Source: Planctomycetota bacterium (GTDB lineage Bacteria > Planctomycetota > Phycisphaerae > Phycisphaerales > SM1A02). Taken from it: a stretch of 32,687 bases of DNA. The stretch is from positions 1 to 32,687 of the forward strand of contig JADFIM010000003.1 in NCBI GenBank assembly GCA_022566725.1. The letters are read 5' to 3'. This document shows positions 1-32,573 of the stretch, piece after piece. The translations under genes were made by a program, and so were the position numbers. The number at the start of each line of letters is the position of its first letter. The first letter of the stretch is position 1. The notes under the pieces are model-generated. The model searched no databases and had not been told where the DNA came from. It worked only from the letters and a program-made list of their open reading frames with translations.

Positions 1-1841
1 CGAGGGGCCGGCATAGCAGGACCTTCCCGACTGCCGACATCGCAGCCGCCAATGTTCTGCGAATGATTCAGCAGGAGCACGGCGCGGACTGGGTGCAGGT
101 GGCGACGTTCATCTACACCGACGGCCTGGGGCGAGAGGTGGCGCGCGTGCTGCGCTATGAGCCGCCGGACCGCGGCCCGAAGAAACTGAAACAACTGCGG
201 CCGATCCATTGCGACGGCGGGAGCTGGTCAATCGGCGATCCGGCCGGGCAATGGCCGCTGTACCGGCTCGCGGACTTGAACGGCTCGCAGCGCGTCTTCA
301 TCGTCGAGGGCGAAGGAAAGGTCGATGCACTGCGATCGCTTGGACTTAGCGCCACGACTTCGGCCCACGGCTCGAAGGCCGCGGCGAAGACGGACTGGCA
401 ACCACTCGCCGGCCGCGATGTCGTGATTCTGCCAGACGCTGATGATGCCGGCCAGCACTACGCCGAGACGGTCGCACGCATCCTGAATCGAGTTCGTTCG
501 CCGGCAATGGTTCGCATCCTACACCTGCCGGATCTACCGCCGGGCGGCGACATCTGTGAGTTCATAGAGGATCGGCGCACCGACGCGAAGGACGATCTTG
601 CAATCCGCACCGAAATCGAAGACCTGGCGGCGCTGGTCACGGAGTATGTGCCTGCGGCCGAGGGTGACCAGGGTGAGGGACCGCGCCCAGTCATGGTCCG
701 CTTGTCGGATGTGCAGCCAGAGCCGGTGCGCTGGCTCTGGCCGGGTCGGATCGCGCTGGGAAAGGTCGCGATAATCGTCGGTGATCCCGGCTTGGGGAAG
801 TCGTTCATCACGTTGGACATGGCGGCACGCATCTCAAGGGGAACGCCTTGGCCGGATGCGCAGAGTGAGGCGAATCCCGTCGGTGGCACTGTGCTACTAA
901 GCGCCGAAGATGACATCGCCGACACGATCCGGCCACGATTGGATGCAGCCGGCGCAGATGTATCGCGCATCGTTGCGTTGCGCGCGGTGCAGCATGGTGA
1001 GGGTGCGGCCCGCATGTTCAACCTAGCGACCGACCTGGAGGCGCTGGAGCGCGCAATCCGCGAGTGTGAAGACTGCCGGCTCGTGGTGGTCGATCCGATC
1101 ACCGCTTACCTAGGCAAGATCGACAGCCACAAGAACGCCGACATCCGCGGTCTGCTCGCACCGTTAGCGGAAATGGCCGGCCGGCTTGGCGTCGCCATTG
1201 TGGCGGTATCGCATCTGAACAAGAGCGGTACTGGGCCGGCGATGTATCGCACGATGGGAAGTCTGGCGTTTGTTGCAGCCGCGCGTGCTGTCTGGGCCGT
1301 GACCAAGGACAAGGAAGATCCCACACGGCGTCTGGTCCTGCCGGTCAAGAACAACCTGGCCCCGGACAAGGGCGGGCTCGCGTACTCACTGCTGAACGAT
1401 GATGACGGCATTCCCCGCGTCTTCTGGGATGCCGAGCCTGTGTCCATGACTGCGGATGAGGCGTTGAACGATGACGGCGAGGACGAGCGGTCGGAGCGCG
1501 AAGCAGCGGCGGAGTGGCTGCGCGATGCCCTGGCCGCTGGTCCGATGCCGGCAAAGGACGTGAAGGGCGAAGCCAAAGAGAACAGCATCGCCGAACGGAC
1601 GCTGAAGCGGGCGAAGAAGGACATCGGCGCGGAGGCCCGACGACTCGGATTCGGCCAGGGGGCAACGTGGTACTGGGCACTTCCTGGGACCTGGGATTCT
1701 CATAGGGGGCCAAGCGAAGCCATAGGGGGCCAACCCCAGGACGTGGCCCCCTATGGGGAAGTTGGCCCCCTTCGTGATAAACCGGCCGATCGCGGCGGCG
1801 GGGACTCCCCGAATCATTCTGAAATGGGTGCTTTACTATGA
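1..1841 (+). CDS. Toprim + RepA/AAA_25-like ATPase, primase-helicase-type replication protein (5' truncated by window edge)
   Basis: Frame stays open upstream of the listed ATG at 63 to the window edge (RGRHSRTFPTADIAAANVLRMIQQEHG...), so the true start is probably outside. Toprim-like VFIVEGEGKVDALRSLG and VVILPDADDAGQHYA; Walker A GDPGLGKSF; Walker B-like LVVVDPITAYL. Confidence 0.85.
   Translation, partial: RGRHSRTFPTADIAAANVLRMIQQEHGADWVQVATFIYTDGLGREVARVLRYEPPDRGPKKLKQLRPIHCDGGSWSIGDPAGQWPLYRLADLNGSQRVFIVEGEGKVDALRSLGLSATTSAHGSKAAAKTDWQPLAGRDVVILPDADDAGQHYAETVARILNRVRSPAMVRILHLPDLPPGGDICEFIEDRRTDAKDDLAIRTEIEDLAALVTEYVPAAEGDQGEGPRPVMVRLSDVQPEPVRWLWPGRIALGKVAIIVGDPGLGKSFITLDMAARISRGTPWPDAQSEANPVGGTVLLSAEDDIADTIRPRLDAAGADVSRIVALRAVQHGEGAARMFNLATDLEALERAIRECEDCRLVVVDPITAYLGKIDSHKNADIRGLLAPLAEMAGRLGVAIVAVSHLNKSGTGPAMYRTMGSLAFVAAARAVWAVTKDKEDPTRRLVLPVKNNLAPDKGGLAYSLLNDDDGIPRVFWDAEPVSMTADEALNDDGEDERSEREAAAEWLRDALAAGPMPAKDVKGEAKENSIAERTLKRAKKDIGAEARRLGFGQGATWYWALPGTWDSHRGPSEAIGGQPQDVAPYGEVGPLRDKPADRGGGDSPNHSEMGALL
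1701..1772. repeat. Nested direct/inverted repeat array, unit ~CATAGGGGGCCAA
   Basis: CATAGGGGGCCAA at 1701-1713 and 1721-1733; reverse complement TGGCCCCCTATG at 1744-1755 (perfect 12-bp stem with 1721-1732, 11-nt loop); TTGGCCCCCTT at 1762-1772. Confidence 0.85.
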
Positions 1842-2092
1842 AGAAAGTGTCGGGTATCCTGTCCATCATGTCCGCGATCTACGATGCCGTCCGCAAGGCC
1901 ATCGCCACGAGTCGGAAGTCCCGGTATCGGCTGTGGCAGGAAACGGGCATCTCGCAGGCCCAGCTGTGCGAGTTCCTGCACGGTCGGCGCGGCATGAGCA
2001 TGGAGAGCTTGGAAACGCTGGCTGAAGCCCTCGGATTGGAAATCATGGTCCGGCCTGTGAAGCGCAAGCCGGTGAACAAGAAGGGACGCTGA
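1838..2092 (+). CDS. XRE-like helix-turn-helix protein
   Basis: ATGA overlap with the upstream stop; SRYRLWQETGISQAQLCEFLHGRRGMSMESLETLAEALGLEI is a Cro/CI-type HTH. Alternative start at 1868. Confidence 0.75.
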   Translation: MKKVSGILSIMSAIYDAVRKAIATSRKSRYRLWQETGISQAQLCEFLHGRRGMSMESLETLAEALGLEIMVRPVKRKPVNKKGR

Positions 2093-2095
2093 ATC

Positions 2096-3436
<1,341 letters not shown>

Positions 3437-17360: not shown

Positions 17361-17910
17361 TTCGCGGACCTCCTTTGCTTGAGCTCAATGACCGCAACAA
17401 GATTCAGCGGGCCGCAGTCGCGTCGCTGCTGCCGTCTCTCAACACTGTATCCAACATACCGCGATTGCGGGTAGAGTCAACACGCAAATGGGGTGTTTTC
17501 GCCATCGATATTCTGCAAGAGGGTAGAACTTTCAGTGTCCGGTCGGGCCTGTCGTGGAACCCGCTGTGGCGGAAGGTCCGGGCAATTGGGAACGACTTCC
17601 TGCGGCCATCATCTTCGTGCTTCCGGGCGGATGATCCTCATGGCGCGCGTCGATCATGCTCAGGGGTGACGGCTTCTATGCCGCCTCTCTCTTTGTGCGG
17701 CCGACCCCGTGCGCTCACCGGGGGCTTCTTGGTTTCGGCGCGCGCACGAAACGGGTTGGTCGGATAATTCATCTCGATTTTTTTCGACGATCCTTTCTGT
17801 GAACCGGCGGTGATTGCACGATCTGCGGACGCGGCAGCGCGCGCCAGGTGTGCCTTGGGCCCAAGGGTGAAGAGCGAACCGTTCCGCACCGCCTTTGGAA
17901 GGTTGCTGCA

Positions 17911-19446
17911 ATGGCGTACGAGCTTGCACCGTTTGGTTCGATCCCGCTTGACGAGGCGTTGCTGGAGCTGCTCATCGAAGAGCACGAGTCGATCACGCTG
18001 CCCCGCCTCGGACGGTTATGGAGCTATTACCGCAACGCGCTGGCTGAGCCGGATGAATTCGGCGGGTCCAATGGTTCGCCGGCACAGGCTGTCGGCCTGC
18101 CGAGACGGCTGATCGAGCGGACGCGGGTTGATCGTGATGATCGGTTTCAGCGGGAGATCGTCATCGAGAACGACATTGCCTGGCGCATCCACACGCTGGT
18201 GGACTTCATGTTTCCCGCGAGTCCAAAGATCGTGAGCCACGCGGTGAATACGCAGCTGCGCCGTGAGATCGAATCGATTCTTGAGGCGACGTTCGACGCC
18301 AACGGCGGGACGGGCCTTTGGCAGACCGCGGCGTTGATGGGATCGGTATACGGGCACGTGGATTTCCTGATCAGCACCCACGGGCTCGCGCAGGTGGCGC
18401 GGGCACGGGCCATCAAGAAGCCATCGCCCGGGGAGGCCCCGTCTAACCCCTCTGTTTATGACCTCACTTCGCGTGTTGCGTCCAACGTGGTCATCGAGAC
18501 GGTCGAGGCGCCCCGGGCGATCCCGCTGCTGAATCGGTCCGACTACCGAAAGCTCGACGCGTACATCATTCACTACCGGCAACTGATTCACGATGTAGAA
18601 CGTGGCGGGCTGCTGGCTCGGCTCAGTCGGGCGGTCTCGCCCCGGGTGCGGGTGGGCGCCCGCCGGGCCTCGATGACGGTGACCGAGATCCATTCTGCAA
18701 CACATTTCCAGCGGTACGAAGACGGTCAACTGGTCATGGAGAGGACCAACCGCCTCGGTCGGCTACCCGTTGTGCACATCCAGAATCTGAGTCAGCCGTT
18801 GTTCTACGACGGCCTGAGCGACGTTGAACCGCTCATTCCGCTTCAGGATGAACTCAACACCCGCCTCAGCGATCGAGCCAACCGCGTCACGATGCAAAGC
18901 TTTCGCATGTGGCTGGGAAAGGGCATCGACGGCTTCACCGAGCGCCCGGTCGGTCCCGGACAAATGTGGGTGACCGACAATCTCGACGCCTCCATCGAAG
19001 GGTTCGGCGGTGATGCCGACAGCCCCAGTGAGAGAGCACACATTGAAGAGCTCCGTGAGGCGCTGGACAAAGCGTCCGGGGTGACGCCGGCCGCGGCCGG
19101 ACACATCAAGGCGAAGGTCGGAAACCTCAGCTCCGAGAACGCGCTACGCATCTCGCTCATGGGCACCATCGCCAAGGTCAACCGCAAGCGCGTCACCTAT
19201 GGGGCGGCAATCGAAGGCCTCTGCGAACTGATCCTGCACGCACTTGATGTCTACGGCGTCTACCGCACCGCCCCAGCGGATCGGCGTGTCGAAGTGGCCT
19301 GGTCGGATTCGCTGCCGATCGACGAGAGCCGCCGGATCAGCGACGCACTGGCCAAGGCGCAACTTGGCATACCCACGAGTGTCTTGCGAGCCGAGTTGGG
19401 GTATCCCGATGAAGCAGGCCTTCAGCCACAAGGCGTGAGTGTTTAG
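17911..19446 (+). CDS. Phage portal protein (SPP1 gp6-like)
   Basis: RLGRLPVVHIQNLSQPLFYDGLSDVEPLIPLQDELNTRLSDRANRVTMQSF and SGVTPAAAGHIKAKVGNLSSENALRISLMGTIAKVNRKRVTYGAAIEGL are portal-type segments. GTG at 17848 is an alternative start. Confidence 0.85.
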   Translation: MAYELAPFGSIPLDEALLELLIEEHESITLPRLGRLWSYYRNALAEPDEFGGSNGSPAQAVGLPRRLIERTRVDRDDRFQREIVIENDIAWRIHTLVDFMFPASPKIVSHAVNTQLRREIESILEATFDANGGTGLWQTAALMGSVYGHVDFLISTHGLAQVARARAIKKPSPGEAPSNPSVYDLTSRVASNVVIETVEAPRAIPLLNRSDYRKLDAYIIHYRQLIHDVERGGLLARLSRAVSPRVRVGARRASMTVTEIHSATHFQRYEDGQLVMERTNRLGRLPVVHIQNLSQPLFYDGLSDVEPLIPLQDELNTRLSDRANRVTMQSFRMWLGKGIDGFTERPVGPGQMWVTDNLDASIEGFGGDADSPSERAHIEELREALDKASGVTPAAAGHIKAKVGNLSSENALRISLMGTIAKVNRKRVTYGAAIEGLCELILHALDVYGVYRTAPADRRVEVAWSDSLPIDESRRISDALAKAQLGIPTSVLRAELGYPDEAGLQPQGVSV

Positions 19447-19509: not shown

Positions 19510-20106
19510 ATGAGCGAACAAGAGACCGTCCCGCCAGACAACGATGTGAAGTCGGAGAATGAACTGCTCGAAGTGGCCGGCGAAACCGCTGACCAGAATC
19601 TCACGGCTCGCACTCACCAAGGCCCCCTCCCAGCGGGAGACGCAACTCGAGGCGACAGGCTTGTCCCGGTCAGCGAGGCGAAGAAGTATCGCAAGCGGGC
19701 CCAGGCCGCTGAGAAGATCTTAGCGGATCTGAAAGCCGAGCTTGGGGAAAGAGACAGGAAGCTGCAGGAGCAGCAGCGGGTGATCAGTGACCTGCAGCGC
19801 CGCGAGCAGATTAGCGAGCTGCTGCAGGAAGCGGGCGCAATTGATCTTGAAACAGCAACGTTGCTGACGGAGATGGCGCTCGCGGAGACAGACGAGCCGG
19901 ACGTGGAGCAGACGGTGTCGGACTTGCGCCGACGAAAGCCGTTTCTGTTCCGATCCAACGCTCGCGGGGCGGCGGTGCTCGGGCCCAAGATCGACAACGA
20001 TCGCTCCCCAGCCGCCGACGTCCTGGAGCGTGCCGCGGTCGAGGCGCACACAACGGGCAGCCGGAGCGCCCTGCTGCGATATCTGCGTTTACGCCGGCAC
20101 ACCTAG
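19510..20106 (+). CDS. Phage capsid scaffolding-like coiled-coil protein
   Basis: Lies between portal and major capsid genes; PVSEAKKYRKRAQAAEKILADLKAELGERDRKLQEQQRVISDLQRR coiled coil, then GAIDLETATLLTEMAL and VSDLRRRKPFLF. Confidence 0.7.
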   Translation: MSEQETVPPDNDVKSENELLEVAGETADQNLTARTHQGPLPAGDATRGDRLVPVSEAKKYRKRAQAAEKILADLKAELGERDRKLQEQQRVISDLQRREQISELLQEAGAIDLETATLLTEMALAETDEPDVEQTVSDLRRRKPFLFRSNARGAAVLGPKIDNDRSPAADVLERAAVEAHTTGSRSALLRYLRLRRHT

Positions 20107-20233: not shown

Positions 20234-21406
20234 ATGCCATTTACCGGAAAGGCCACCTACTCCGCTGGGGCCACCCTGCCTGAAATCGCGGAAGACGTAA
20301 GCGACATCATCGCGCTCGTGAGTCCGTATGAGACACCGCTGCTGGATCACCTCGGCGACCCACAGCGATCAGCAATGAGCACCGTACACGAGTGGTTGGA
20401 GGACAGCCTGCTGCCCAACACCGACGCTGTGAACGACCAGACCATTACCGACCCGCCGAACGAAACGATCTTCACGGTTGACAACGGTGATCGGTTCAGC
20501 GTCGGCGATCAAATCATGCTGAAGGGTAAAGATGAGGTCATGTTGGTGACAGCTGTCAGCATCAACGACCTCACCGTGGTTCGCCAGTACGGCGGAAGCC
20601 CCTCGGCGTCCCTGGCTGACAATGACGTGATCATCATCATCGGCAACGCCGCCCTCGAAGGCGACGACGCCCCATCGACGCGGTTCACCAATCGTGTGCG
20701 GAAGCAGAACTACACCCAGATCTTCACCGCCACCGTCGAGGTCTCGGGCAGCCAGCTTGCGGCGCAATCGATCGGTTTGGACGACGAGATGGACTACCAG
20801 AAGCAGGAGCGGCTCCGCGAGCTGTTACGCGACCTTGAGAACTGCGTGATCAACGGCTTCGCCGCGTCAAGTGACCCACAGGGTGACACCAGCACCCGGC
20901 GCACGATGCGGGGGGTCATTGCATCGATCGCGACGAACTCCTTCGCGCCCGATACCGGGCCTATCCCGCCCGGCGACGGCGTGGGCAACGACTTGCTCAA
21001 TGAGGCCGTGCTCAATGCGGCTCTGCGTGAGGTGTGGGAGCAGAGCTCCGGCACCATCGACACCATCGTCTGTGGGGGCTTCCAGAAGCGGCAGATCAAC
21101 GGGTTCATCTCGACCTCGCAGCGGTTCATCGGCCACGAGAAGCAGTTCAGCTCGATGGTGGAGGTGTACGAGTCGGACTTCGGCGTGTGCCGGGTCGTCA
21201 TGAGCCGTTGGGTTCCGCAGGACATGCTGCTGCTACTGGACGGCTCGCGGATTGACGTGCCACCGCTGGCTGGACGCAGCTTCCACTTCAAGCCCCTGGC
21301 TAGCCAAGGCGACGCTGAGGTCGGCCAGGTGATCGGCGAGTACACGCTGGAGTTCCGCAACGAGAATGCTCACGCCCTGCTCAAGAACCTCGCCACCACC
21401 TCATAA
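20234..21406 (+). CDS. Major capsid protein (SU10/DUF5309-like, HK97 fold)
   Basis: VSDIIALVSPYETPLLDHLGDPQRSAMSTVHEWLEDSLLP, FTNRVRKQNYTQIFTATVEVSGSQLAAQ, IDTIVCGGFQKRQINGFIS, VVMSRWVPQDMLLLLDGSRIDVPPLAGRSFHFKPLA. Confidence 0.85.
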   Translation: MPFTGKATYSAGATLPEIAEDVSDIIALVSPYETPLLDHLGDPQRSAMSTVHEWLEDSLLPNTDAVNDQTITDPPNETIFTVDNGDRFSVGDQIMLKGKDEVMLVTAVSINDLTVVRQYGGSPSASLADNDVIIIIGNAALEGDDAPSTRFTNRVRKQNYTQIFTATVEVSGSQLAAQSIGLDDEMDYQKQERLRELLRDLENCVINGFAASSDPQGDTSTRRTMRGVIASIATNSFAPDTGPIPPGDGVGNDLLNEAVLNAALREVWEQSSGTIDTIVCGGFQKRQINGFISTSQRFIGHEKQFSSMVEVYESDFGVCRVVMSRWVPQDMLLLLDGSRIDVPPLAGRSFHFKPLASQGDAEVGQVIGEYTLEFRNENAHALLKNLATTS

Positions 21407-21556: not shown

Positions 21557-22216
21557 ATGGCCATGATCACCGACCGCGACCTGCTGACGATCGAGCCGAG
21601 CATCTTCGTCGATGCTCAGGGCGAAGGTACTCTGCTTACTGAAGCCAGTGATGCCATCGTCACCCGCTCGAACAGAAGACTCGATAGCGCCTCGAGCGAC
21701 TTCATCAGCGATGGTATCACCACTTCCCACGTGGTCGTCGTGACCTATCCCACCAGCGACAATCAGGTCCTCGAAATCACCAGCGTTTCCAGCACTACCA
21801 CCATGGTCGTCTCAAGAATCCGAGCTCAACCCAGCGACCCCGCCATCAAGCCGCAGGACGGCAGTGCCCTGCCGATCACGATCATCACCTTCCAGCGGGC
21901 CATCGACCAGGCCCAGGCTTGGGTGCTCGGCGCCCTGGGGATGGTTGACACCGGGCAGGTCGACGACCTCGATGAGACCGACATCACCAATCCCGAGGAT
22001 GTCAAGCGGATGATCGCCACACTTACGATCGCTCGCGTTTTCGCCGGCGCCGCCGCCGGCACCCCCGCCGACGCCGGTCTGGCCGCACAATCCGCCCTCT
22101 ATTCGACTCGGGTCAAGGAAACGGCCCACCAGACCAGGGTTCTGATCGATCTCGACGGTGACGGCCTGCCTGAGGCCACACGGCGCATCGATGTGCTGGC
22201 TCTGGTGAGAGATTAA
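21557..22216 (+). CDS. Head-tail connector-like protein
   Basis: Directly downstream of the MCP: MAMITDRDLLTIEPSIFVDAQGEGTLLTEASDAIVTRSNRRLDSASSDF; called on context and length. Confidence 0.5.
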   Translation: MAMITDRDLLTIEPSIFVDAQGEGTLLTEASDAIVTRSNRRLDSASSDFISDGITTSHVVVVTYPTSDNQVLEITSVSSTTTMVVSRIRAQPSDPAIKPQDGSALPITIITFQRAIDQAQAWVLGALGMVDTGQVDDLDETDITNPEDVKRMIATLTIARVFAGAAAGTPADAGLAAQSALYSTRVKETAHQTRVLIDLDGDGLPEATRRIDVLALVRD

Positions 22217-22236: not shown

Positions 22237-22509
22237 ATGGTCGACGGCACAGTGACGGTCCTCACGCAGTTCGGAGCAGCCGGTCTCATCGGGATGCTGT
22301 GGGTCTTCGAGCGTCGCCACGCCGCCACCCGAGACCGGCAACTCAATGAGTCACATCAGAAGCTCGTGGGGCAGGAACGCGAGCTGGATGCATTGCTTAC
22401 CGTGGTCAAAGAGAATACCAGGGCGATCAGTACGCTTGAACAGGGTCAGCGGCGACTGATTGATCTGCTAGAGCACCTGCGCCGCAGCAAGTCTGCCGAT
22501 GCGGCCTAG
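22237..22509 (+). CDS. Small membrane-anchored coiled-coil protein (holin-like position)
   Basis: N-terminal TM LTQFGAAGLIGMLWVFERR followed by amphipathic helices ELDALLTVVKENTRAISTLEQGQRRLIDLLEHLRR. Confidence 0.5.
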   Translation: MVDGTVTVLTQFGAAGLIGMLWVFERRHAATRDRQLNESHQKLVGQERELDALLTVVKENTRAISTLEQGQRRLIDLLEHLRRSKSADAA

Positions 22510-22547
22510 GCCTACCGCGATAGTCCGTGTATCGGTATCCTGCATGG

Positions 22548-23072
22548 ATGCGATTGAGCGGCGTGACGGTCATCTTGGTGCTGGGCCTGCTTTGCGCCTG
22601 GGGATGTGCGCGTAGTCCTATCCCATCTACACCGGGCTCTGGGCACGGCCTCCGCACGGCCGGGAATGGGAACCACCGTCCCGGCTCAACCACCGCATCC
22701 TGGCCCTTCTGGCCAGATCGAATGCGCATTCACCCGCTGAGCCGACGGGCTACCGATCGAGACTCCGGCCGGCCTTACATTGAGGCGCGAATCGAGTTCT
22801 TCGACGCGTTTGGCCACACGTGCAAGGGCGTGGGCCAGATTCGTATCGATCTGCTTGCGGTCGGGCCGGCGAAGAATTCGTTGCAACGAATCACGACGTA
22901 CGCTAAGGACTTTAGTGACCTGTCGATCAACCGAGATCACTATGACGACGTGACCCGCACCTATCGCTTTCACCTGGAGCTTGATCGGGAGGCTCTCCCT
23001 GAAAGGTTGGAGTTGCGAGCCTGTTTTCTCTCTGCCAACGGGCAACGACTTGAAGCGACGTACTGCTTGTGA
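22548..23072 (+). CDS. Putative lipoprotein
   Basis: MRLSGVTVILVLGLLCAWGCARS lipobox-like N-terminus; conserved-looking globular C-terminal part. Confidence 0.55.
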   Translation: MRLSGVTVILVLGLLCAWGCARSPIPSTPGSGHGLRTAGNGNHRPGSTTASWPFWPDRMRIHPLSRRATDRDSGRPYIEARIEFFDAFGHTCKGVGQIRIDLLAVGPAKNSLQRITTYAKDFSDLSINRDHYDDVTRTYRFHLELDREALPERLELRACFLSANGQRLEATYCL

Positions 23073-23149: not shown

Positions 23150-23449
23150 TCACATCGAGTCCTGTCTCGACGAATCTGGTCCAGTGTTGCGTGGCTCGGG
23201 CACCTCCTCGATCACCGTGTATCGGTCAAGATTCAGGATGACCAGTTCGCCGCTGTCTAATCGCAGCTCGAGACGGTCCAGCCAGAGCTGGTCATCTTTG
23301 ACGTGGGCGAACCACGAGCCTGTCTTGGTCTGCTGACAGCGGGTGACCGCCCCTTCGATCGTATTCGTCCACGGCCGTTCCCGATGAGGCAATTGCTGGG
23401 TGACGCGAACGCGCATACCGGGTTGGGGCGACATTATCCACAACGGCAT
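23150..23449 (-). CDS. Conserved small protein of unknown function
   Basis: MSPQPGMRVRVTQQLPHRERPWTNTIEGAVTRCQQTKTGSWFAHVKDDQLWLDRLELRLDSGELVILNLDRYTVIEEV. Confidence 0.65.
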   Translation of the reverse strand: MPLWIMSPQPGMRVRVTQQLPHRERPWTNTIEGAVTRCQQTKTGSWFAHVKDDQLWLDRLELRLDSGELVILNLDRYTVIEEVPEPRNTGPDSSRQDSM

Positions 23450-23521
23450 GGCAGCAGTGTACACAGGTTGGACAAAGGCCACCCTAGACTCTCGCAGCCC
23501 ATCGACCCTGGGATCGACGTG

Positions 23522-24772
23522 TCAGTGAGCGGGTACCGCCAACTCGACCTTCCCGATCGAAGCCACCGTGAACTCGCCGAATACCCGCGACTGGAGGTAG
23601 GCGTTGAGCTGATCGATGGTGACGGCGTCGACCTCACGAGCCAGCTCATCTAATGATCTGGCCCGTCCAAGGCGAAACTGGTCGTGCCCAATCGCCACGG
23701 CCCGTGCGGGGGTGGACTCGCCTCGCATGATCAGGTGGCTTTTCAGGCCGGCCACCGCCCGCTTGAGTTCCTCTTCGCGTACGCCCTCTTGCAACCGCTC
23801 AATTTCAGCGAGGCATACCTCCAGGGTTTCGTCTGCGCGCTCGGGCGTGGTGCCGACGTACAGCGCGACCAGGCCGCTGTCCCGCCCAGCATGGAACGAC
23901 GCCCCCACGCTGTAGCAAAGCGATCGCTTCTGCCGCACCTCGGTGAATAGGCGAGCACTTGTCCCCCCGCTGAGCACGCCGACAGCGAGCCGTTCCAGCA
24001 TCGAGCGGGGGTCTGCTTCGCGAGGAGCGTCGTAGCCCAATCCGATGTGCACCTGGGCCGTATCCTGCTTGATGTACGCCCTGCCACGGAGAGGCGGGCG
24101 CTGCTCCACCGGCTCGCGATGCTCACCGGACCAGCCGGCAAGCAAGGCGTCGAGCTGATCGGCCAGCGAATCCGGGTCAACAGCGCCTGCTGCGGAGAAA
24201 ATCGACCCGACCGGCGTGCAACGGCTCATCCACGCCTCACGAATGGCCTCGATTGAACAACCCTCCAGTACTTCACGGCACCCATAGCCGTGGCGATTGA
24301 ACGGTGCGGGGAGATGACGTTGACGCAGGCACAACATCACGAGGTGCTGCGGGTCATCGTCCAGCGAGTCGAGAGATTGCAGACAGAGGCTTCGAACCGC
24401 TTCAAGCCCGTCGGCGGGCAGGGCCGGCTCGCGCACCATGGCGGTCATCAGCCCCAATGCCTCGCTCAGGCGATCGCCCAGGAGCGTCGCACCCAGCCGC
24501 AGGTGATACGTCAGCACCCCGCTGGAGCGCTGCACACCCAGACGATCAAGCGCATCACTGTGGCCTCGACTGTTCAGTCCGCCGGCTCCGCGGAAGATGA
24601 GCTCACTGAGAATCGCCGGGATGCCGTCGCCCTCAGGGGGATCGGTGGCCGAACCAACGGGCAGAAGCCAGCTCAGCGCGACTGAAGCGACGTTCGGAAC
24701 CGGTTCAACGACAAGGGTCGCACCACAGTCAAGTTGAGTTGTGTGGATATCGCTCATTCCAGGGACGCCCAT
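23522..24772 (-). CDS. M16-family (insulinase-like) peptidase homolog, zinc motif not preserved
   Basis: GATLVVEPVPNVASVALSWLLPVGSATDPPEGDGIPAILSELIFRGAGG; AGAVDPDSLADQLDALLAGW; QDTAQVHIGLGYDAP; VLSGGTSARLFTEVRQKRSLCYSVGASF. Confidence 0.88.
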   Translation of the reverse strand: MGVPGMSDIHTTQLDCGATLVVEPVPNVASVALSWLLPVGSATDPPEGDGIPAILSELIFRGAGGLNSRGHSDALDRLGVQRSSGVLTYHLRLGATLLGDRLSEALGLMTAMVREPALPADGLEAVRSLCLQSLDSLDDDPQHLVMLCLRQRHLPAPFNRHGYGCREVLEGCSIEAIREAWMSRCTPVGSIFSAAGAVDPDSLADQLDALLAGWSGEHREPVEQRPPLRGRAYIKQDTAQVHIGLGYDAPREADPRSMLERLAVGVLSGGTSARLFTEVRQKRSLCYSVGASFHAGRDSGLVALYVGTTPERADETLEVCLAEIERLQEGVREEELKRAVAGLKSHLIMRGESTPARAVAIGHDQFRLGRARSLDELAREVDAVTIDQLNAYLQSRVFGEFTVASIGKVELAVPAH

Positions 24773-24993
24773 CGCCGAACAGGCCTCAATGCATCATAGC
24801 CGACGCCGATCCAGCGCCGGCTTGATCCCCGTGGGTCGCAGTGCCGCGCGATGCAAGCCGAGCAATATGCCCAGCCCGCACAACCCGACCTGATTCTCGC
24901 CCAAATTCAACACCTCAATGAGCAAGGAGGCGCTTGAGTCCGATTACCCAGCAACGGAGCATCGACGCGCCGCGTACCCGCAGCGCTACAACC

Positions 24994-25482
24994 ATGCGAA
25001 TCATGATCTACAGTCTGGTTGCCTTGATGGTTGCGAGCGTTGTCGCCGGCGTGGTCTTCTATGGCCGTGCTGCACGGGGGATGGAGCAACGGATCGTCCA
25101 GGCGCGTGCGGAGGTCCGCCGCTTCCAGAGTCAGATCATGCTTCAAGCGGGCTTGGAACAAGCCGAGCTGACGGTGCGAGGGTATCCGGCAGCGGTCGAC
25201 CCGGAATGGTTTCACGGCGACTTGCCCACGAACCCACTACTTGGCCCAGGGCACCCCTGGCTGGGCATTGCCGATGATTCGCACAGCGACCTCGAACATC
25301 CAGTGAACTTGACCGCTTCGGACCACAGCCTGGCGCAGTTCTGGTACAATCCGTATACGGGTCAAGTGCGAGCCCGGGTGCCGGCCGGGATCTCCGACGC
25401 GGCGGCGCTTGGGTTGTATAATCGCGTCAACGACTGCAACCTGCCTGATTTGTTTGAAAGTGCGAGGGCCGTCGAACGGTGA
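24994..25482 (+). CDS. Membrane-anchored hypothetical protein
   Basis: MRIMIYSLVALMVASVVAGVVFYGRAARG N-terminal TM, coiled segment, then a globular part (PWLGIADDSHSDLEHPVNLTASDHSLAQFWYNPYTGQVRARVP). Confidence 0.55.
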   Translation: MRIMIYSLVALMVASVVAGVVFYGRAARGMEQRIVQARAEVRRFQSQIMLQAGLEQAELTVRGYPAAVDPEWFHGDLPTNPLLGPGHPWLGIADDSHSDLEHPVNLTASDHSLAQFWYNPYTGQVRARVPAGISDAAALGLYNRVNDCNLPDLFESARAVER

Positions 25483-25535
25483 TCTGGGGCTTGGCACTGG
25501 GCACAATGGTCGAAGAACGTTCAATCTGAGCGGGC

Positions 25536-26243
25536 TCAGGGCTGATTGGAAGCAGGCAACCCGAGGGCCTGCTCGATCGTGTATAGGCCCGGCGCTTGAC
25601 CGTGGAGCCAGGCGGCTGCCCGCAGCGCCCCGCGTGCGAAGAGATCGCGGCTGGTTGCGATATGGCAAAGTCTGATGCGCTCCCCGTCGGCGGCGAATTC
25701 GACGGTATGTTCCCCCACGACGTCGCCGCCCCGAATGGCGTGGATTCGATCGGCGGGCAACTCGATGCCGGCGTCCCGCCTCAGCCTTTCGGCGATCCGC
25801 AGCGCCGTTCCCGAGGGTTTATCGCGCTTGCCGGCGTGGTGGACCTCGGTCAGATTCACGTCGTAGCCGTCCCCGAGCAGCCGGGCGGCCTGGGTCGCCA
25901 GGTGAGTCAACACCGCCACACCGAAGGAGGTGTTCGCGGCGACCATCGCCGGGACCGAGCCAGCCGCAACATCAATAGCACTGAGCGTTTGGGACGATAG
26001 GCCAGTTGTCCCAACGAGGATCGCTAGGCGGTGCTCGATGGCGAATCGGGTCGCGCTGCGGGTGCCCTCATCGGAGGAAAAGTCGATGATCGCGTCGGGC
26101 GACACATCGGCGGTTCGAGTGGTCGTCGGGTCGATCGCCGGGTCGATCTGGGCCACCAGGTCGAAGCGCGGATCGTCGCGCGCGAGGGTGCAGATTCTCG
26201 CGCCCATGCGCCCGGCGGCACCGTAAACAGCAAGTCGAATCAT
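25536..26243 (-). CDS. dapB: 4-hydroxy-tetrahydrodipicolinate reductase
   Basis: MIRLAVYGAAGRMGARI, IDFSSDEGTRSATRFA, ILVGTTGLS, NTSFGVAVLTHLA, EVHHAGKRDKPSGTALRIAE, IRGGDVVGEHTVEFAADGERIRL. Confidence 0.95.
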   Translation of the reverse strand: MIRLAVYGAAGRMGARICTLARDDPRFDLVAQIDPAIDPTTTRTADVSPDAIIDFSSDEGTRSATRFAIEHRLAILVGTTGLSSQTLSAIDVAAGSVPAMVAANTSFGVAVLTHLATQAARLLGDGYDVNLTEVHHAGKRDKPSGTALRIAERLRRDAGIELPADRIHAIRGGDVVGEHTVEFAADGERIRLCHIATSRDLFARGALRAAAWLHGQAPGLYTIEQALGLPASNQP

Positions 26244-26391
26244 GGTAGATTCCCCATCGAGGCACTGGCGTCGCTGAGCAATTTCTGTCAAGATACTTCC
26301 ATTGGAGGTCCGATAGATGTACAAAATCCTCCGGCGGTCGTACCGCCATCAATCTGCTCCGACAAGGTAACCCAAACAGGAGGTTATTCCA

Positions 26392-26640
26392 ATGGCAAAA
26401 AAGAGACGCGCCACGAAGAAGAAGGCCGCCAGGAAAAAGACGGCCAAGAAGAGGACTGTAAGAAAGGTTAGACGAAAGAAGGTCACCAGAAAGAAGGTCG
26501 CTCGCAAGAAGAGGAAGACCAGAAAGAAGAAGGCCACTACCAAGAAGAAGGCCACTCGAAAGAAACGGAGGAAGAAGGCGACCAAGAAGAAGGCCACCCG
26601 CAAGAAGGTCAGAAGGAAGAAGGCCAGAAAAAAGAAGTAG
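26392..26640 (+). CDS. Lys/Arg-rich histone H1-like low-complexity protein
   Basis: 82 aa almost entirely [45 protein letters not shown]...; upstream aggaggt SD-like sequence. Confidence 0.8.
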
Positions 26641-26646
26641 CGATCA

Positions 26647-26667
26647 ACGCCCCCGTTCAAGGGGCGT
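26647..26667. terminator. Hairpin downstream of the histone-like gene
   Basis: Perfect 7-bp inverted repeat ACGCCCC (26647-26653)/GGGGCGT (26661-26667), 7-nt loop, 7 bp after the stop; no clear T-tract. Confidence 0.4.
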
Positions 26668-26833
26668 ACCGATACTTCGAATGGCAGGATCTGATGGGGC
26701 TGGCATTGATGCCGGCCTCTTTCTATGCGCGCAAGGCGACCAGGCAGGACCCTGTTGCCGGTTCCGTACACATCGACTGCTACAATCGGAAACCCAGGGT
26801 TCAGGGCTTGGAGGGACACCGAGGAACCGTGCC

Positions 26834-27100
26834 ATGACCCACGTCATCGGGGAAACCTGTATCAACACCAAGGACGCTTCCTGCGTGGATGTCTGCCCCG
26901 TCGATTGCATTCACCCAACCAAGGACGAGGCGGAGTTCCAGGAGGCGGAAATGCTGTACATCGACCCGGACACGTGCATCGACTGCGGCTTGTGCGTCGA
27001 TGAGTGCCCGGTTCAGGCGATCTTCCCTGAGGAGGACCTACCGGAGCAATGGCTCAACTACATCCAGATCAACTCGGAGTGGTACCAGAAGCAGGCGTGA
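26834..27100 (+). CDS. fdxA: FdxA-like 3Fe-4S/4Fe-4S ferredoxin
   Basis: [27 protein letters not shown] and [30 protein letters not shown]. Confidence 0.9.
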
Positions 27101-27186
27101 TCGCGATCACCCCAGCCCATGTGCTGTGGCGCCAACATGTGCATGCCCAGGCAGGTGAGCTGCAAGCGCGGCAGTAGCACCGCCGG

Positions 27187-27618
27187 TCAATCCCCGGGAT
27201 ACTCCTCATCCTCCTCGGAGTCGCTCACCTTGCTGACACCGCTAGCGGCGTCCGGCCGTTCCGTCCAGTCCTCGACCCGGGCCCCGAGATTCAGCTCGCT
27301 GGTCATTGTCTTGCGGTAGCCCAGTTTTCGAATCACCTCCAGCACTTCGGTCCAGGTCGGAAACGTCAACTCGTTGACGCGCTTGAAGCTGTCGATGGCC
27401 ATGATGAACATGAACTGCTCTTGCGTCATTTCGCCTTCTTCAGCCGCTCGCATGAAGTCGGTGCGGCGGCGTCCCGGCCCGCGTCTCCGTTCGAGATTGG
27501 TTGCCGTAGCGATCGGGCGCGCCTCCCTTTGATCAATGCCGTGCCGTCGATCAACAACACTTTTTCTGCGACTTGAGCCGCGCTGGACCTGCTCATCTTC
27601 CTGGTCGTGTTCAGCCAT
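27187..27618 (-). CDS. Conserved hypothetical protein
   Basis: RRGPGRRRTDFMRAAEEGEMTQEQFMFIMAIDSFKRVNELTFPTWTEVLEVIRKLGYRKTM core with acidic tail. Confidence 0.65.
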   Translation of the reverse strand: MAEHDQEDEQVQRGSSRRKSVVDRRHGIDQREARPIATATNLERRRGPGRRRTDFMRAAEEGEMTQEQFMFIMAIDSFKRVNELTFPTWTEVLEVIRKLGYRKTMTSELNLGARVEDWTERPDAASGVSKVSDSEEDEEYPGD

Positions 27619-27762
27619 GACTTGCTCCGGCCGTCCACAGCTGCCCAATGCGGGTACACTACGCCCGACCTGGGCGACTGCGAAGAACTGCCGACGCATG
27701 CCAATCGAGCCGCATGGGACGGCGATAAGCTGAGAATCGAGTTACTCCTCAACCCGCAGACC

Positions 27763-28245
27763 ATGTCCATTTCGACCAAATCTGACTGGCAATTCACCCC
27801 ATCGAACGCGATTCTCGCGTGGGTCTGGCCGGGGCTCGGACATATCAGCCTCGGCCACCGCAGACGCGGTCTACTCGTAATGTTTGGAGTCCTGTTCCTG
27901 TTCCTCGGCGGCGTGCTCATCGGGGGGATCGATGTTGTGGACCGCAAGGAAGATCGGCTGTGGTTCTGGGCCCAGGCCCTTTGCGGACCGATCGCGCTCG
28001 CTGTGGATTTCACAAATCAGACCTTCCTCAAGACGTGGCCGCCTGACGGGGCGGAGCGATCCGACGAGAGGGACTCCAGGGCCATCGTTCAGCTGGGCCG
28101 CAAGGGCCTCGGCCGCGTCAATGAGATGGGCACACTCTTTTGCGCACTGGCCGGATTGATGAACCTCGTCGTGATTCTCGACGCGCTTCACCATCCGTCC
28201 AGAAGAGTTGCGGATCGGCGGCGGCGCGGCAGCGCCGAACCATGA
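27763..28245 (+). CDS. Conserved multi-TM membrane protein (DUF6677-like)
   Basis: NAILAWVWPGLGHISLGHRRRGLLVMFGVLFLFLGGVLIGGIDVVDRKEDRLWFWAQALCGP...VNEMGTLFCALAGLMNLVVILDAL. Confidence 0.65.
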   Translation: MSISTKSDWQFTPSNAILAWVWPGLGHISLGHRRRGLLVMFGVLFLFLGGVLIGGIDVVDRKEDRLWFWAQALCGPIALAVDFTNQTFLKTWPPDGAERSDERDSRAIVQLGRKGLGRVNEMGTLFCALAGLMNLVVILDALHHPSRRVADRRRRGSAEP

Positions 28246-28493
28246 TCCCCGTGCTCGCCTACATTCCGTTTCTCGACCCGATCAATGCGGTACACGATTG
28301 GTGGTATCTGCTGCTGGTCCCATTGTCGTTCAGCGTGTCCGTGATCTACCTGGCGCTGCGGATGCCCAGTCTCGACCATTACTGGCGACGAGTGTTGTTG
28401 ATGACCGTGCAGATCGTAGGGGCAATCGCCGCCCTGGCGATCGTACTTGTGGTGCTTGTCCAGGTGGTTATTCCCTGGTTGCCGGTGGATTAG
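28242..28493 (+). CDS. Small two-TM membrane protein, translationally coupled to the upstream gene
   Basis: ATGA overlap at 28242-28245; WWYLLLVPLSFSVSVIYLALRMP and VLLMTVQIVGAIAALAIVLVVLVQVVIPWL. Confidence 0.65.
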   Translation: MIPVLAYIPFLDPINAVHDWWYLLLVPLSFSVSVIYLALRMPSLDHYWRRVLLMTVQIVGAIAALAIVLVVLVQVVIPWLPVD

Positions 28494-28550: not shown

Positions 28551-29330
28551 TCACTGCCCCACCCTTCGCATCACGTATGCGGCGGCGTACATCCCGCCGA
28601 TGTCCTCGCGATCGACGGACGTCGGCGGGTACTTGTTGTTCAGCGGCTGCAGGCGGATCGTCCGGCCATCGTCCTCGATGTAGATGCGCTTGAAAGTGGT
28701 CTCGTTGTCGCGCAGGAGGCGCACAAAGCAGTCCGATCCCGACGGCGTGAGCAGGGCGGGTGAGAAAATCACGATCTCGCCTTCGCGGTAGCCCGGCTCC
28801 ATTGAGTCGCCCACGACCCGCGCCGCGAACGCCTGTGGGTCGGTGACATCGGGGCAGGCGATGTGCTCGTCGGCAATCGACGCTGGATAGTCCAGGTCGG
28901 TGAACTCCCGGGGATACCCGGCGGCAACCTGGTTGATGACCGGGATCTGCCGACCTAACGGAAGGGGCTCGTCCACGTTGGCGGTGAACTGCTCGATGAT
29001 CTCCCGCAGCTCTCCGGTGCGAAACAGCTCGTCAAGGCTCTCGCCTCGACGGGCCGCCTGCCTCAACCGCCCAGCCAGGGCCTGTGAGGTTGCCACGCGA
29101 GCCTTGACCTCGGCCGGCGTGCTGTCCCATTGCAATGCCGCAATCAATCGAGCATCGGTGATCCCCAGGGCCGACTCAATCTGACGGGCCTTGGACGCCG
29201 AGACCGTCCGCTGGCCGGACTCCATCAACGACAGATGCGACTTGCTGCACCGGAGCACCTTGGCCAATGCCTCCTGGGTCATCCCGGCCTGTTTCCGCTC
29301 GTCGCGGATCAGGCGGCCAATGGTCGCCAT
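28551..29330 (-). CDS. XRE HTH + S24 peptidase phage repressor (CI/LexA-like)
   Basis: N-terminal GRLIRDERKQAGMTQEALAKVLRCSKSHLSLMESGQRTVSASKARQIESALGI; C-terminal VVGDSMEPGYREGEIVIFSPALLTPSGSDCFVRLLRDNETTFKRI. Confidence 0.92.
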   Translation of the reverse strand: MATIGRLIRDERKQAGMTQEALAKVLRCSKSHLSLMESGQRTVSASKARQIESALGITDARLIAALQWDSTPAEVKARVATSQALAGRLRQAARRGESLDELFRTGELREIIEQFTANVDEPLPLGRQIPVINQVAAGYPREFTDLDYPASIADEHIACPDVTDPQAFAARVVGDSMEPGYREGEIVIFSPALLTPSGSDCFVRLLRDNETTFKRIYIEDDGRTIRLQPLNNKYPPTSVDREDIGGMYAAAYVMRRVGQ

Positions 29331-29484
29331 GTGAACCTCCCGTCAAGATTCAAAAAGTTTACTAAAATGTGAACTCTGGGCTTGCTTTGCGCCTGCCAAT
29401 AGTGTAAACATTGTTCGATAGTTTGCAAGTATGAAAACTCATATTGGGCGTCGTTTCTTGTAACCCGTTTGTGGAGCGTTTATT
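29331..29484. promoter_or_regulatory. Divergent AT-rich promoter/operator region
   Basis: Between divergent repressor and HTH genes; imperfect dyad AGTTTAC-N6-GTGAACT (29356-29375) and TGTAAAC-N11-GTTTGCA (29403-29427). Confidence 0.6.
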
Positions 29485-29937
29485 GTGATATTCGAGGCGA
29501 GTGCCGACGAGGCCGCCAGGCTCCGCCAGCACCGTGGCCTGGCCGAGCGAATCCTGGATTATGTGGCCCCCCTTCGGACTGGGGATCAGGCCCTGCTGCG
29601 GGCAATCTACGACCGAGGGATGACGGCCAGCGACTTCGCCCGCGCTGTGGGCCAACGGCCTCGGACGGTGCGTCGGCGGGTCCAGAGGCTTCTGGAGCGG
29701 ATCGGCTCCGATCATTTTCAGTTGGTCCTGCGGCAGCGGCAAGATTGGCCGTCAACACGTCGCCGTGTCGCGGAACTCGTCTTTCTCCAGGGCGCATCGC
29801 AGCGGCAGACCGCTGCCTCCACCGGCCTAAGCCTGCATCAGATCAGGCAGGAGATCGCCCGCATCCGATTCTTGATCGACCACGATCTTCAGCGGCGCGG
29901 GCCGACGGGAGCGCTTGATGCGCAGCATCCGCGTTGA
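29485..29937 (+). CDS. Sigma-70 region-4-like double HTH protein
   Basis: GTG start; two HTH-like segments: LLRAIYDRGMTASDFARAVGQRPRTVRRRVQRLLER and LVFLQGASQRQTAASTGLSLHQIRQEIARIR. Confidence 0.6.
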   Translation: MIFEASADEAARLRQHRGLAERILDYVAPLRTGDQALLRAIYDRGMTASDFARAVGQRPRTVRRRVQRLLERIGSDHFQLVLRQRQDWPSTRRRVAELVFLQGASQRQTAASTGLSLHQIRQEIARIRFLIDHDLQRRGPTGALDAQHPR

Positions 29938-30574
29938 GCGCAGCGTCGCGACGGCTGTCCGTCCGTCACCGCGAGTGCTGGAGATGGCCGTCATGTTTGG
30001 GTTGGGCGTGGATGATCAACGGAGGTTGCAGGTTGTCCCACCGTGCGAGATCCCACTGCCGCAGGGCGCAGTGGTCTTCGTCACCGGGCCCTCCGGCGGC
30101 GGGAAATCCACGATCCTCGCGTTGATCGGGGAGCAGTGCGATATGAACAGCGTTGGCGTGATCCGTTTCGATCAACAGGCCTCTTTGCCTGAAGTGCCGC
30201 TGGTCGATGTGTTCGATCTTCCGTTATCACGGGTTACGTCGCTGCTGGCCATGGCGGGGCTTGGCGACGCCTTTGTGATGCTTCGTTGCCCCTGCGAGCT
30301 GAGCGACGGCCAGAGATACCGGCTTCGCCTGGCGCAGACGATTGAGCTGGCCGAACGTGAAGATGCGGGCGCTGTGATACTGGCCGACGAATTCGGGGCG
30401 ACCCTAGACCGCCAGACCGCCCAGATCATCGCCCGCAATGTGTACCGCTGGACCCGCCGATCCGGCCACACTTTCGTCGCCGCGACCAGCCACGATGATC
30501 TGCTCGAAGCGCTTCAGCCGCAGGTGCTCGTGTACAAGGGCCTGGGCGAGCAGATGGAGGTGGTGCTGCAATGA
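29918..30574 (+). CDS. ABC-type ATPase (COG2401-like ATPase half)
   Basis: Walker A FVTGPSGGGKSTIL; signature variant CELSDGQRYRLRLAQ; Walker B VILADEFGATLDRQTAQIIARNV; H-loop-like FVAATSHDDL; no TM segments. Confidence 0.8.
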   Translation: MRSIRVERSVATAVRPSPRVLEMAVMFGLGVDDQRRLQVVPPCEIPLPQGAVVFVTGPSGGGKSTILALIGEQCDMNSVGVIRFDQQASLPEVPLVDVFDLPLSRVTSLLAMAGLGDAFVMLRCPCELSDGQRYRLRLAQTIELAEREDAGAVILADEFGATLDRQTAQIIARNVYRWTRRSGHTFVAATSHDDLLEALQPQVLVYKGLGEQMEVVLQ

Positions 30575-31407
30575 TCGACGGAGCTTGCAGCCCAGCCGTA
30601 TGTGACAACCCGCGGGAATCACTTCGCCAACGTTTCGAGCGCCTTCCCGCAGCATCAATCGTCCAGAAGCTGCGCACCGAAGCCGGCACGTTCGCCGACT
30701 ACAGGCACCTTTCACCATTCCATTACAAATCAGGCCAGCCGGGCGCCGTCACCAAGGTCTACCGTCTCGTTTACAGGGCACCGACGGTGGTCGGTCGATT
30801 CCGGCGTCGGCACAACGAAACCACAGTCGTCGGCGTCCTGCTACGGTCACTTCCGTCTCTCGGCTGTCAGCTTCGTGACTACGCGACGAACAATCGCTAC
30901 CGAGGCATTGGAGACAGGGCAACGGCAGCCATGCTCAACCACGAGTTCCGCACCATCAATCGAGTCGTGATCGACCCGCGATGGCGCGGGTTGGGGCTGG
31001 CGGTGCAACTGGTCCGCCATGCCCTGGAGCATCCAGAGACGATCTTTACCGAAGCGCTGGCCGCGATGGGGCGGGTTCATCCCTTCTTCGAGCGAGCCGG
31101 CATGACCCGCTACGACCGTCCGCCGAGGCCCGAGTACGCCCGGCTGATCGACGCGTTCGATCGGCTGGAGGTTCCTCCTGGGCTGCTTGCCTGCCGACGG
31201 CTGGTCCGTGACGCCCTTGACAAGCATCGCCCAGAGGACCAGCGATGGATCGAAATGGAGCTCCGACGGTGGCATCGCATCGCCTTTCGCACGCCAAAGC
31301 ATCGGCTCAACGCTCTCGCGCTCGACGATCTGCTGGTCGCCGCTCGTGATCGGCTGATGTCGCAGCCGGTGTATTACCTCTACCACCACAACGATACGGA
31401 GGCATGA
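30571..31407 (+). CDS. GNAT-like (Mom/COG2401 acetyltransferase-half-like) protein
   Basis: ATGA overlap with the ATPase; INRVVIDPRWRGLGLAVQLVRHALEH resembles the GNAT acyl-CoA-binding motif; RVHPFFERAGMTRYDRP. Confidence 0.65.
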   Translation: MIDGACSPAVCDNPRESLRQRFERLPAASIVQKLRTEAGTFADYRHLSPFHYKSGQPGAVTKVYRLVYRAPTVVGRFRRRHNETTVVGVLLRSLPSLGCQLRDYATNNRYRGIGDRATAAMLNHEFRTINRVVIDPRWRGLGLAVQLVRHALEHPETIFTEALAAMGRVHPFFERAGMTRYDRPPRPEYARLIDAFDRLEVPPGLLACRRLVRDALDKHRPEDQRWIEMELRRWHRIAFRTPKHRLNALALDDLLVAARDRLMSQPVYYLYHHNDTEA

Positions 31408-31476
31408 GAAGGAATCGGTGACGGGAGCCCAACCGCTTCGATCTTGTAACGCAACTGCGTCTGGACCCTCCCAGCC

Positions 31477-32064
31477 ATGCCGAACATCCCACTCGACCGG
31501 CTCGACGAACATCCCGGCAACGCGAACCGCATGGGCGAGAGCCTGCTGGAGAAGCTCATCGCCCATCTGGGCGAGTCAGGGGACTATCCGCCGCTGATCG
31601 TTCGGCCCCACCCCGCAAAGAAGGACCGGTACCAGATTCTCGACGGCCATCATCGAGCCAAGGCGCTTCGCCGGCTTGGCCATCCGCACGCTCGGTGCGA
31701 GGTGTGGGAGGTAGACGATCAACGTGCTGACTTGCTGCTGGCGACGCTTAACCGGTTGCGCGGCGATGATGATCCGTACCGTCGTGGAGAGCTCCTCGCA
31801 CGCCTCGCAGGTTCGATGGGCGTCAAAGCGTTGGCCTCTCACCTCCCTGAGGATGTCAGCCGCATTGGCAAGCTCATCGCGGCCACTCAGCCACCACCGG
31901 CGCCTGCACAGCCGCCCGACCTGGCGACGATGCCCCAGGCGGTGACGTTCTTCCTTACCGCCGGCCAGCGTGATCGGCTGTTTAAGAAGCTCAGACCTCT
32001 CACACGGGATCGAAGCGCAGCGCTGGTGGAGTTGCTGGCTCTGGATGAGCCAACAGGAGCTTAG
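31477..32064 (+). CDS. ParB/Srx-fold nuclease-like protein
   Basis: NIPLDRLDEHPGNANRMGESLLEKLIAHLGESGDYPPLIVRPHPAKKDRYQILDGHHRAKALRRLG. Confidence 0.85.
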   Translation: MPNIPLDRLDEHPGNANRMGESLLEKLIAHLGESGDYPPLIVRPHPAKKDRYQILDGHHRAKALRRLGHPHARCEVWEVDDQRADLLLATLNRLRGDDDPYRRGELLARLAGSMGVKALASHLPEDVSRIGKLIAATQPPPAPAQPPDLATMPQAVTFFLTAGQRDRLFKKLRPLTRDRSAALVELLALDEPTGA

Positions 32065-32141
32065 CCGCCGCTGCAAGTCCGCGGGCCCAACCCCCGCATA
32101 TCCATGCGGAGCCATGACACAAGCATGAGGCGAAATCGTTG

Positions 32142-32573
32142 ATGTCAGCGCCACAAAGGCCGCGTCGAAAGTGCAAAGCGTTTGACGAGCATGTGATCGC
32201 GCGGATTGTCGAAGCGGATCTATCGCCCGCGGAGTTGGCCAGGGAGCTGGAGATGAGCTTGTTCGAGCTGTCCGAACGGGCGGCGCAACCCTCGAACGTC
32301 AAGGCATTGGAGGCATTGGCCAGGCTCTCGGACGTGCGGACCCAGATGCTGTTGAGTCAATATCGTGCGAATGCGGCCATCCGGTTGATTGAGATCGCAT
32401 TAGCCAAGGAACCTACGGAGGCATCGCGCAGAGCCTGCGTGGATCTGCTGCGGGCCGACCTTGACGTCTTTGAGCAAACGTGTCAACCTACCGGCGAGTC
32501 GCAGGACGCGGCGCCGCCAAGCGAAGAGACAATTCTGGCGGCCTTGGAGCGGCTGGGCGAACAGCAGCCATGA
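32142..32573 (+). CDS. Terminase small subunit-like / HTH helical protein
   Basis: ARIVEADLSPAELARELEMSLFELSERAAQPSNVKALEALARLSDVRTQMLLSQYRANAAIRLIEIA; helical HTH-type protein immediately before the next ORF. Confidence 0.4.
   Translation: MSAPQRPRRKCKAFDEHVIARIVEADLSPAELARELEMSLFELSERAAQPSNVKALEALARLSDVRTQMLLSQYRANAAIRLIEIALAKEPTEASRRACVDLLRADLDVFEQTCQPTGESQDAAPPSEETILAALERLGEQQP

Follow-up and report, generated by a model that had tools for sequence, protein, structure and literature searches.

Introduction

Gene transfer agents (GTAs) such as RcGTA, BaGTA and BhGTA are viriforms (PMC9662315). Few GTA lineages have been characterised, most of them in Alphaproteobacteria, and it is still not settled how widespread GTAs are (PMC11841831). 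The activator of RcGTA, GafA, has a sigma-like domain (PMC6363796), and the terminase large subunit (TerL) of a planctomycete prophage lies near RcGTA-like TerLs (PMC7947584). In the open-licence literature searched, no report of a GTA in Planctomycetota or Phycisphaerae was found. Another closely related system is the pairing of an ABC ATPase with a GNAT acyltransferase, for which acylation of DNA bases was predicted earlier (PMC7824862); a literature search on COG2401 found nothing. Here I analyse an operon that encodes such a pair at the end of contig JADFIM010000003.1 (32,687 nucleotides), which comes from a Planctomycetota metagenome-assembled genome (MAG; 82% complete) and whose entire length is hereafter called the window. 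The operon belongs to island A, which probably carries the control and packaging functions of a GTA-like element that has been domesticated and is inherited vertically in Phycisphaerae. ABC-GNAT pairs with a predicted role, and GTAs as a kind, were already known; what is new is the GTA-like setting in Planctomycetota.

Results

Island A consists of a CI repressor gene on the minus strand facing HTHsig-ABC-GNAT-ParB-TerS-TerL on the plus strand, where HTHsig is a protein with two helix-turn-helix (HTH) motifs and TerS the terminase small subunit. A second island, island B, carries the head genes. Each island is a single-copy part of the chromosome, and host genes separate the two. In the window, the islands and these host genes comprise the following features.

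17848..19446, plus strand: island B, portal protein of the SPP1 type (SPP1_portal family match)
19510..20106, plus strand: island B, putative scaffold (position and conservation)
20234..21406, plus strand: island B, major capsid protein (SU10_MCP, 1.6e-88)
21557..22216, plus strand: island B, putative head completion/connector protein, w21557 (position)
22237..22509, plus strand: island B, small conserved protein, w22237, possibly lysis-related (weak spanin match in one relative)
22527..23072, plus strand: island B, conserved protein with a lipoprotein-like N-terminus (conservation)
23150..28493, strand unassigned: host genes separating the islands (a small gene labelled csrA-like, M16 peptidase, dapB, ferredoxin, DUF6677 and neighbours)
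28551..29330, minus strand: CI-like repressor, HTH and S24 autopeptidase, divergent from the operon (family matches)
29357..29374, strand unassigned: operator-like near-palindrome GTTTAC-N6-GTGAAC between CI and the operon (sequence match only)
29485..29937, plus strand: HTHsig, two HTHs resembling sigma-70 region 4, candidate activator (family matches; homologues in 31 loci)
29915..30574, plus strand: stand-alone ABC ATPase (family matches, conserved motifs)
30571..31407, plus strand: GNAT acyltransferase, partner of the ABC ATPase (family matches, invariant residues, AlphaFold2 model)
31477..32064, plus strand: small ParB/Srx-fold protein with a GHHR motif (family matches)
32139..32573, plus strand: TerS family protein (PHROG matches of aligned family members)

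The five co-directional open reading frames (ORFs) are all open at these coordinates and, with the family matches, agree with the initial annotation of this DNA, which had described a tight co-directional HTH-ABC-GNAT-ParB-TerS operon under a CI-like switch. That annotation also placed the operon immediately before the packaging genes. This cannot be seen in the window, since the contig ends 114 bases past the last ORF (TerS, 32139-32573), before TerL and any further packaging genes, but it holds in relatives: TerL is present in 31 of 35 homologous loci holding ABC and GNAT (the window counted in, one spurious ABC hit excluded), and all 14 TerL members scanned match the PHROG terminase large subunit. 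The complete block, with CI on one strand and HTHsig-ABC-GNAT-ParB-TerS-TerL on the other, recurs across families of the window's order; the arrangement is therefore not due to chance. Failure of these families to co-occur beside terminases beyond this locus had been named beforehand as what would refute the proposal, and such co-occurrence was found widely. Phylum-wide, a GNAT relative was detected in 48 of 297 Planctomycetota genomes.

The two islands occur together. Among 121 genomes of the order, mostly MAGs like the other genomes compared here, the capsid gene is present in 70 and the GNAT gene in 71, almost always in one copy. Both are found in 66 genomes, the capsid only in 4, the GNAT only in 5 and neither in 46 (Fisher 7e-23, a value that overstates independence because the genomes are related). 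In the 35 genomes with both islands on one contig, they lie 10-646 kb apart (median 38.5 kb). The order of the host genes between them is the same in near relatives and is found in parts in other families; in genomes of family f95, the gap holds an Mrp-type antiporter operon and an aminotransferase. Near relatives of the window still have its host gene order around island B at capsid identities as low as about 71-79%; for some of them, no island A was detected in the stretch examined. Island A adjoins the host genes DUF6677, w28140 and/or w27187 in f1 (the window's own family), f2, f3, f94 and f95. These neighbours lie at the TerL end in f2, f3, f94 and f95 and at the CI end in the window, which suggests an inversion in place.

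Divergence and phylogeny both point to inheritance with the host. The synonymous divergence (dS) of island genes from their closest relatives is about 0.05-0.13, similar to that of adjacent host genes. In comparisons with closest relatives, the ratio of nonsynonymous to synonymous divergence (dN/dS) is 0.05-0.18 for portal and capsid; medians within genera g233 and g3 are mostly 0.13-0.4, and values across capsid, portal, TerL, ABC and GNAT are mostly 0.05-0.4, indicating purifying selection. In trees of 24 genomes, islands A and B agree in 17 of 21 splits (Mantel 0.90), and a host tree built from uvrB and recA shares 14 of 21 splits with island B and 11 of 21 with island A, against a random maximum of 3. 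A search with the capsid alignment turned up 313 relatives among genome contigs versus 7 in 2.9 million viral contigs. The best 80 of the 313 belong to Phycisphaerales, Phycisphaeraceae, Sedimentisphaerales and similar planctomycete records, one being labelled Vicinamibacteraceae. The tyrosine integrase of the window has no relative in 80 capsid loci with flanks up to 10 kb, a screen that did not systematically cover other integrase types or replication genes. Taken together, the host context, dS, congruent trees, scarcity in viral contigs and lack of an integrase match are better explained by a domesticated element inherited with the host than by a phage.

Within island A, the ABC ATPase matches ABC_tran (30.5 bits, cut-off 25) and phrog_293 (1.8e-27), the GNAT matches phrog_886 (2.2e-12) and, at the cut-off score, Acetyltransf_1, and the ParB-like protein matches phrog_723 (4.4e-13). 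The first gene of the operon (29485-29937) encodes two HTHs resembling sigma region 4. When searched singly, the TerS ORF of the window gave no convincing family match; its designation as TerS-like, which could not be seen from the window protein alone, is supported by its family, 3 of whose 16 aligned members match the PHROG terminase small subunit (best 8e-8). The ABC ATPase family keeps Walker A, the LSxG signature, the DE of Walker B and the D-loop, and in the TerL family Walker A (WANRGGGKT), Walker B and the acidic residues of the nuclease are retained. In the GNAT family, H51 Y52, R102, R131, R139, G142, E161, M166 and A176-G177 are invariant or kept. An unconserved GNAT active site had also been put forward as grounds for refutation; the acetyl-CoA motif is conserved, as are the catalytic motifs of the ABC ATPase. 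Most members of the CI family keep the A-G cleavage site, the serine of GDSM and the lysine of TFK, and this repressor is predicted to be an SOS-cleavable switch. The sequence GTTCAC-N6-GTGAAC is present in two f95 loci (L109 and L124) at a site comparable to that of the operator-like near-palindrome; promoter and terminator scans of the operon gave results at or below chance.

Base modification is a plausible role of ABC-GNAT. A fold search with the AlphaFold2 model of the GNAT (pLDDT 80.5, pTM 0.72) returned many generic GNATs (TMq ~0.3), with TmcA and NAT10 among the top matches (TMq ~0.35). Like ABC-GNAT, TmcA and NAT10 couple an ATPase to a GNAT, but their ATPase lies outside the ABC family, their substrate is RNA and the similarity is generic. 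Kinship with them was rejected, the matches being of fold only, weak and common to generic GNATs. A defence-island reading was also rejected: the PADLOC hits mad3 and mad8 resemble matches of a generic kind to ABC ATPases, and none was obtained for the GNAT.

The ABC-GNAT-ParB cassette is not unique to the Phycisphaerae locus. Pseudomonas phage nickie and Rhizobium phage RHEph10 encode ParB, a second ParB-like protein, ABC, GNAT, a DNA-binding protein, TerL and portal, with small genes interspersed; Salmonella phage SSU5 has ParB, ParB, ABC and GNAT at the end of its record, with no TerL within the stretch examined. As in island A, ParB, ABC and GNAT of these phages are read in one direction and, in nickie and RHEph10, lie upstream of a DNA-binding protein and TerL. 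Unlike island A, all three are true phages with two ParB proteins ahead of ABC, and identity to the island A proteins is about 40% for ABC and about 20-27% for GNAT. Gordonia Sourvirus is also among the known phages with ABC-GNAT-ParB ahead of the terminase. Genes 1-4 of Gordonia phage BiggityBass encode ParB, an ABC ORF long enough to include GNAT, a methyltransferase and terminase, and in Streptococcus phage Javan523 a ParB-like gene and ABC lie a few genes ahead of TerL. Single-sequence GNAT and TerS searches of viral contigs gave no relatives, and a search with the GNAT alignment found 62 in IMG/VR, 60 of them scored as fused with an ABC domain. TerL is on the same fragment in 45 of these 62 loci, mostly directly upstream of the fusion, in contrast to ParB, which lies within 2.5 kb of only 5. 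The stable unit is therefore ABC-GNAT beside TerL, and ParB is optional.

Two further arrangements were observed. In the distant planctomycete family f28 (L054, L058, L059), fused ABC-GNAT genes of about 440 aa lie directly before TerL, with one match in each of 13 f28 genomes; these loci are possibly another domesticated lineage. In Microbacterium phage Pickles13 (L282:2469-3621), a ParB-like gene overlaps one encoding a Mom-type acetyltransferase, which makes a ParB-GNAT pair that lacks an ABC ATPase.

In f3 and some f4 genomes, island B includes a six-gene module, c13-c23-c14-c42-c21-c32, between the connector and w22237 (L090:4433-11282, minus strand; L128, L101, L100). The module, a candidate set of tail genes, has almost no family matches, and it is solely their position that makes c14 and c21 putative tail genes.

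In two genomes of different families, G315 (L105:181-11766) and G379 (L347:1487-13069), an insertion breaks the capsid gene at about codon 60. It is about 11.5 kb long and encodes a large serine recombinase (63% identity between the two genomes), a Phage_capsid_4/Mu gpT-like capsid of its own, an AAA ATPase and a DNA methyltransferase. It appears to be a capsid-encoding mobile element that uses the island B capsid gene as its integration site. In G224 (L348, G224:C41:50001-66000) the capsid gene is also split, its N-terminal piece lying on the opposite strand.

Elsewhere in the window, a small conserved gene without family match (23150-23482) lies beside island B; in other families it is found just upstream of the portal gene. 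Positions 3-3397 contain a primase/helicase, a small HTH gene and the tyrosine integrase, and this stretch, which ends beside gpmI, is the end of a separate integrative element.

Discussion

Several observations weigh against the proposal that islands A and B make up a domesticated GTA-like element. Homologues of c14/c21 were not detected in the window genome (82% complete), in the tested f95 and f2 genomes, or in G246, G331 and G315; a complete transducing particle is thus not supported in the window lineage, f95 and f2. Many f1 genomes, 20 or more, are without both markers, and f2 has largely lost ParB (found in 1 of 35 genomes at cut-off) and partly lost TerS. Compared with L163, w21557 shows a divergence far above that of neighbouring genes, an apparent event of horizontal exchange. 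Finally, kinship of the GNAT with Mom was rejected (hhalign probability 3% versus the Mu Mom profile), and its fold matches are the generic ones described above.

If the GTA-like reading is correct, DNA damage would lead to cleavage of CI, HTHsig would then activate both islands, heads would assemble from island B products, and TerS/TerL would fill them with cellular DNA. A less certain step would be an ATP-dependent acylation, by ABC-GNAT with the aid of ParB where present, of DNA bases or another packaging substrate shortly before or during packaging, which would mark or protect the packaged DNA. The initial annotation had proposed a DNA-modification or packaging cassette without established function for its exact set. 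The idea of DNA modification agrees with the published prediction for ABC ATPase and GNAT (PMC7824862), which also qualifies the claim of no established function. ParB, counted as part of the set, is its most variable member, lost in most of f2 and seldom near viral ABC-GNAT genes. An ordinary phage or prophage setting is not supported: the operon is one of a pair of chromosomal islands, probably those of a domesticated element that is passed on vertically.

An alternative to the modification step is that ABC-GNAT-ParB spares the bases and regulates packaging, for example through acetylation of terminase, scaffold or a host protein, or by acting on the complex of DNA and terminase to remodel it. 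This is a serious possibility, if somewhat short of an even one. The linkage is specifically to the terminase gene, both in the viral loci with TerL (45 of 62) and in nickie, RHEph10 and the Gordonia phages, and no Mom kinship was found. Mu Mom and the island A GNAT both belong to the GNAT superfamily and have an HY motif in the N-terminal region; however, the RGxG motif of the island A family is not conserved in the Mom alignment, and no ABC ATPase partner is noted for Mu Mom. On the other hand, ParB-fold proteins also pair with Mom-type acyltransferases, the Mom relative of Pickles13 adjoining a ParB-like gene as does the island A GNAT, and the fold neighbours of the GNAT include, weakly, the nucleobase acetyltransferases TmcA and NAT10.

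The GTA-like reading can be extended into a bolder one, that of an ancient, class-wide Phycisphaerae GTA of independent origin, with an SOS-controlled packaging island and a head island, whose packaged DNA would be chemically marked by ABC-GNAT-ParB, whose particles would be tail-less and head-only in several lineages, and whose capsid gene would be a target of other capsid-encoding elements. I consider this full version doubtful.

It is unlikely, though less so than the phage-based explanations below, that the element is a domesticated phage derivative that does not transfer DNA, its head-only capsids and terminase serving another host use such as intracellular DNA packaging, lysis or phage interference. 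In its favour, capsid, portal and TerL are under purifying selection while tail-like genes were not found in the window lineage, f95, f2 and some of f4. Yet TerL still has its nuclease and ATPase motifs, the portal is also retained, the tail-like module is retained in f3 and part of f4, and a diverged or relocated tail locus is conceivable elsewhere.

That the window carries an ordinary temperate phage or prophage with a DNA-modification or packaging cassette is very improbable. A CI-like switch, TerS/TerL and a module also found in real phages would suit a prophage, but host genes between the islands, conserved host neighbours, a single copy across the order, host-congruent trees, no integrase match and near absence from viral contigs would not. 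Decaying prophage remnants caught in passing, suggested by the patchy absence in f1 and the interrupted capsid genes of G315 and G379, can scarcely be reconciled with low dN/dS in separate genera and conserved catalytic residues in many genomes of several families.

A split, vertically inherited head and packaging system across Phycisphaerae would, if true, add a further candidate GTA lineage, with a defined set of genes, from a class of which few members are cultured. The orphan ABC-GNAT-ParB module, a predicted DNA acylator, would thereby gain a setting in which a link with packaging, including marking of DNA before delivery, can be tested.

The island A module resembles the predicted ABC+GNAT acylation system in that ABC is adjacent or fused to GNAT, the DNA is phage-derived and the catalytic motifs are intact. 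It differs in belonging to a chromosomal, vertically inherited element with separate ABC and GNAT genes; modification is only predicted in both. With respect to the known GTAs, the Phycisphaerae element belongs to a different bacterial class, has an SPP1-type portal, an SU10-type capsid and an extra ABC-GNAT-ParB module, is without detected tail-like genes in many lineages, and is described here at the level of genes. By contrast, both have Caudoviricete genes for head and packaging, are inherited vertically, occupy more than one chromosomal locus and are under purifying selection, and HTHsig, the sigma-like candidate activator, is comparable to the sigma-like domain of GafA.

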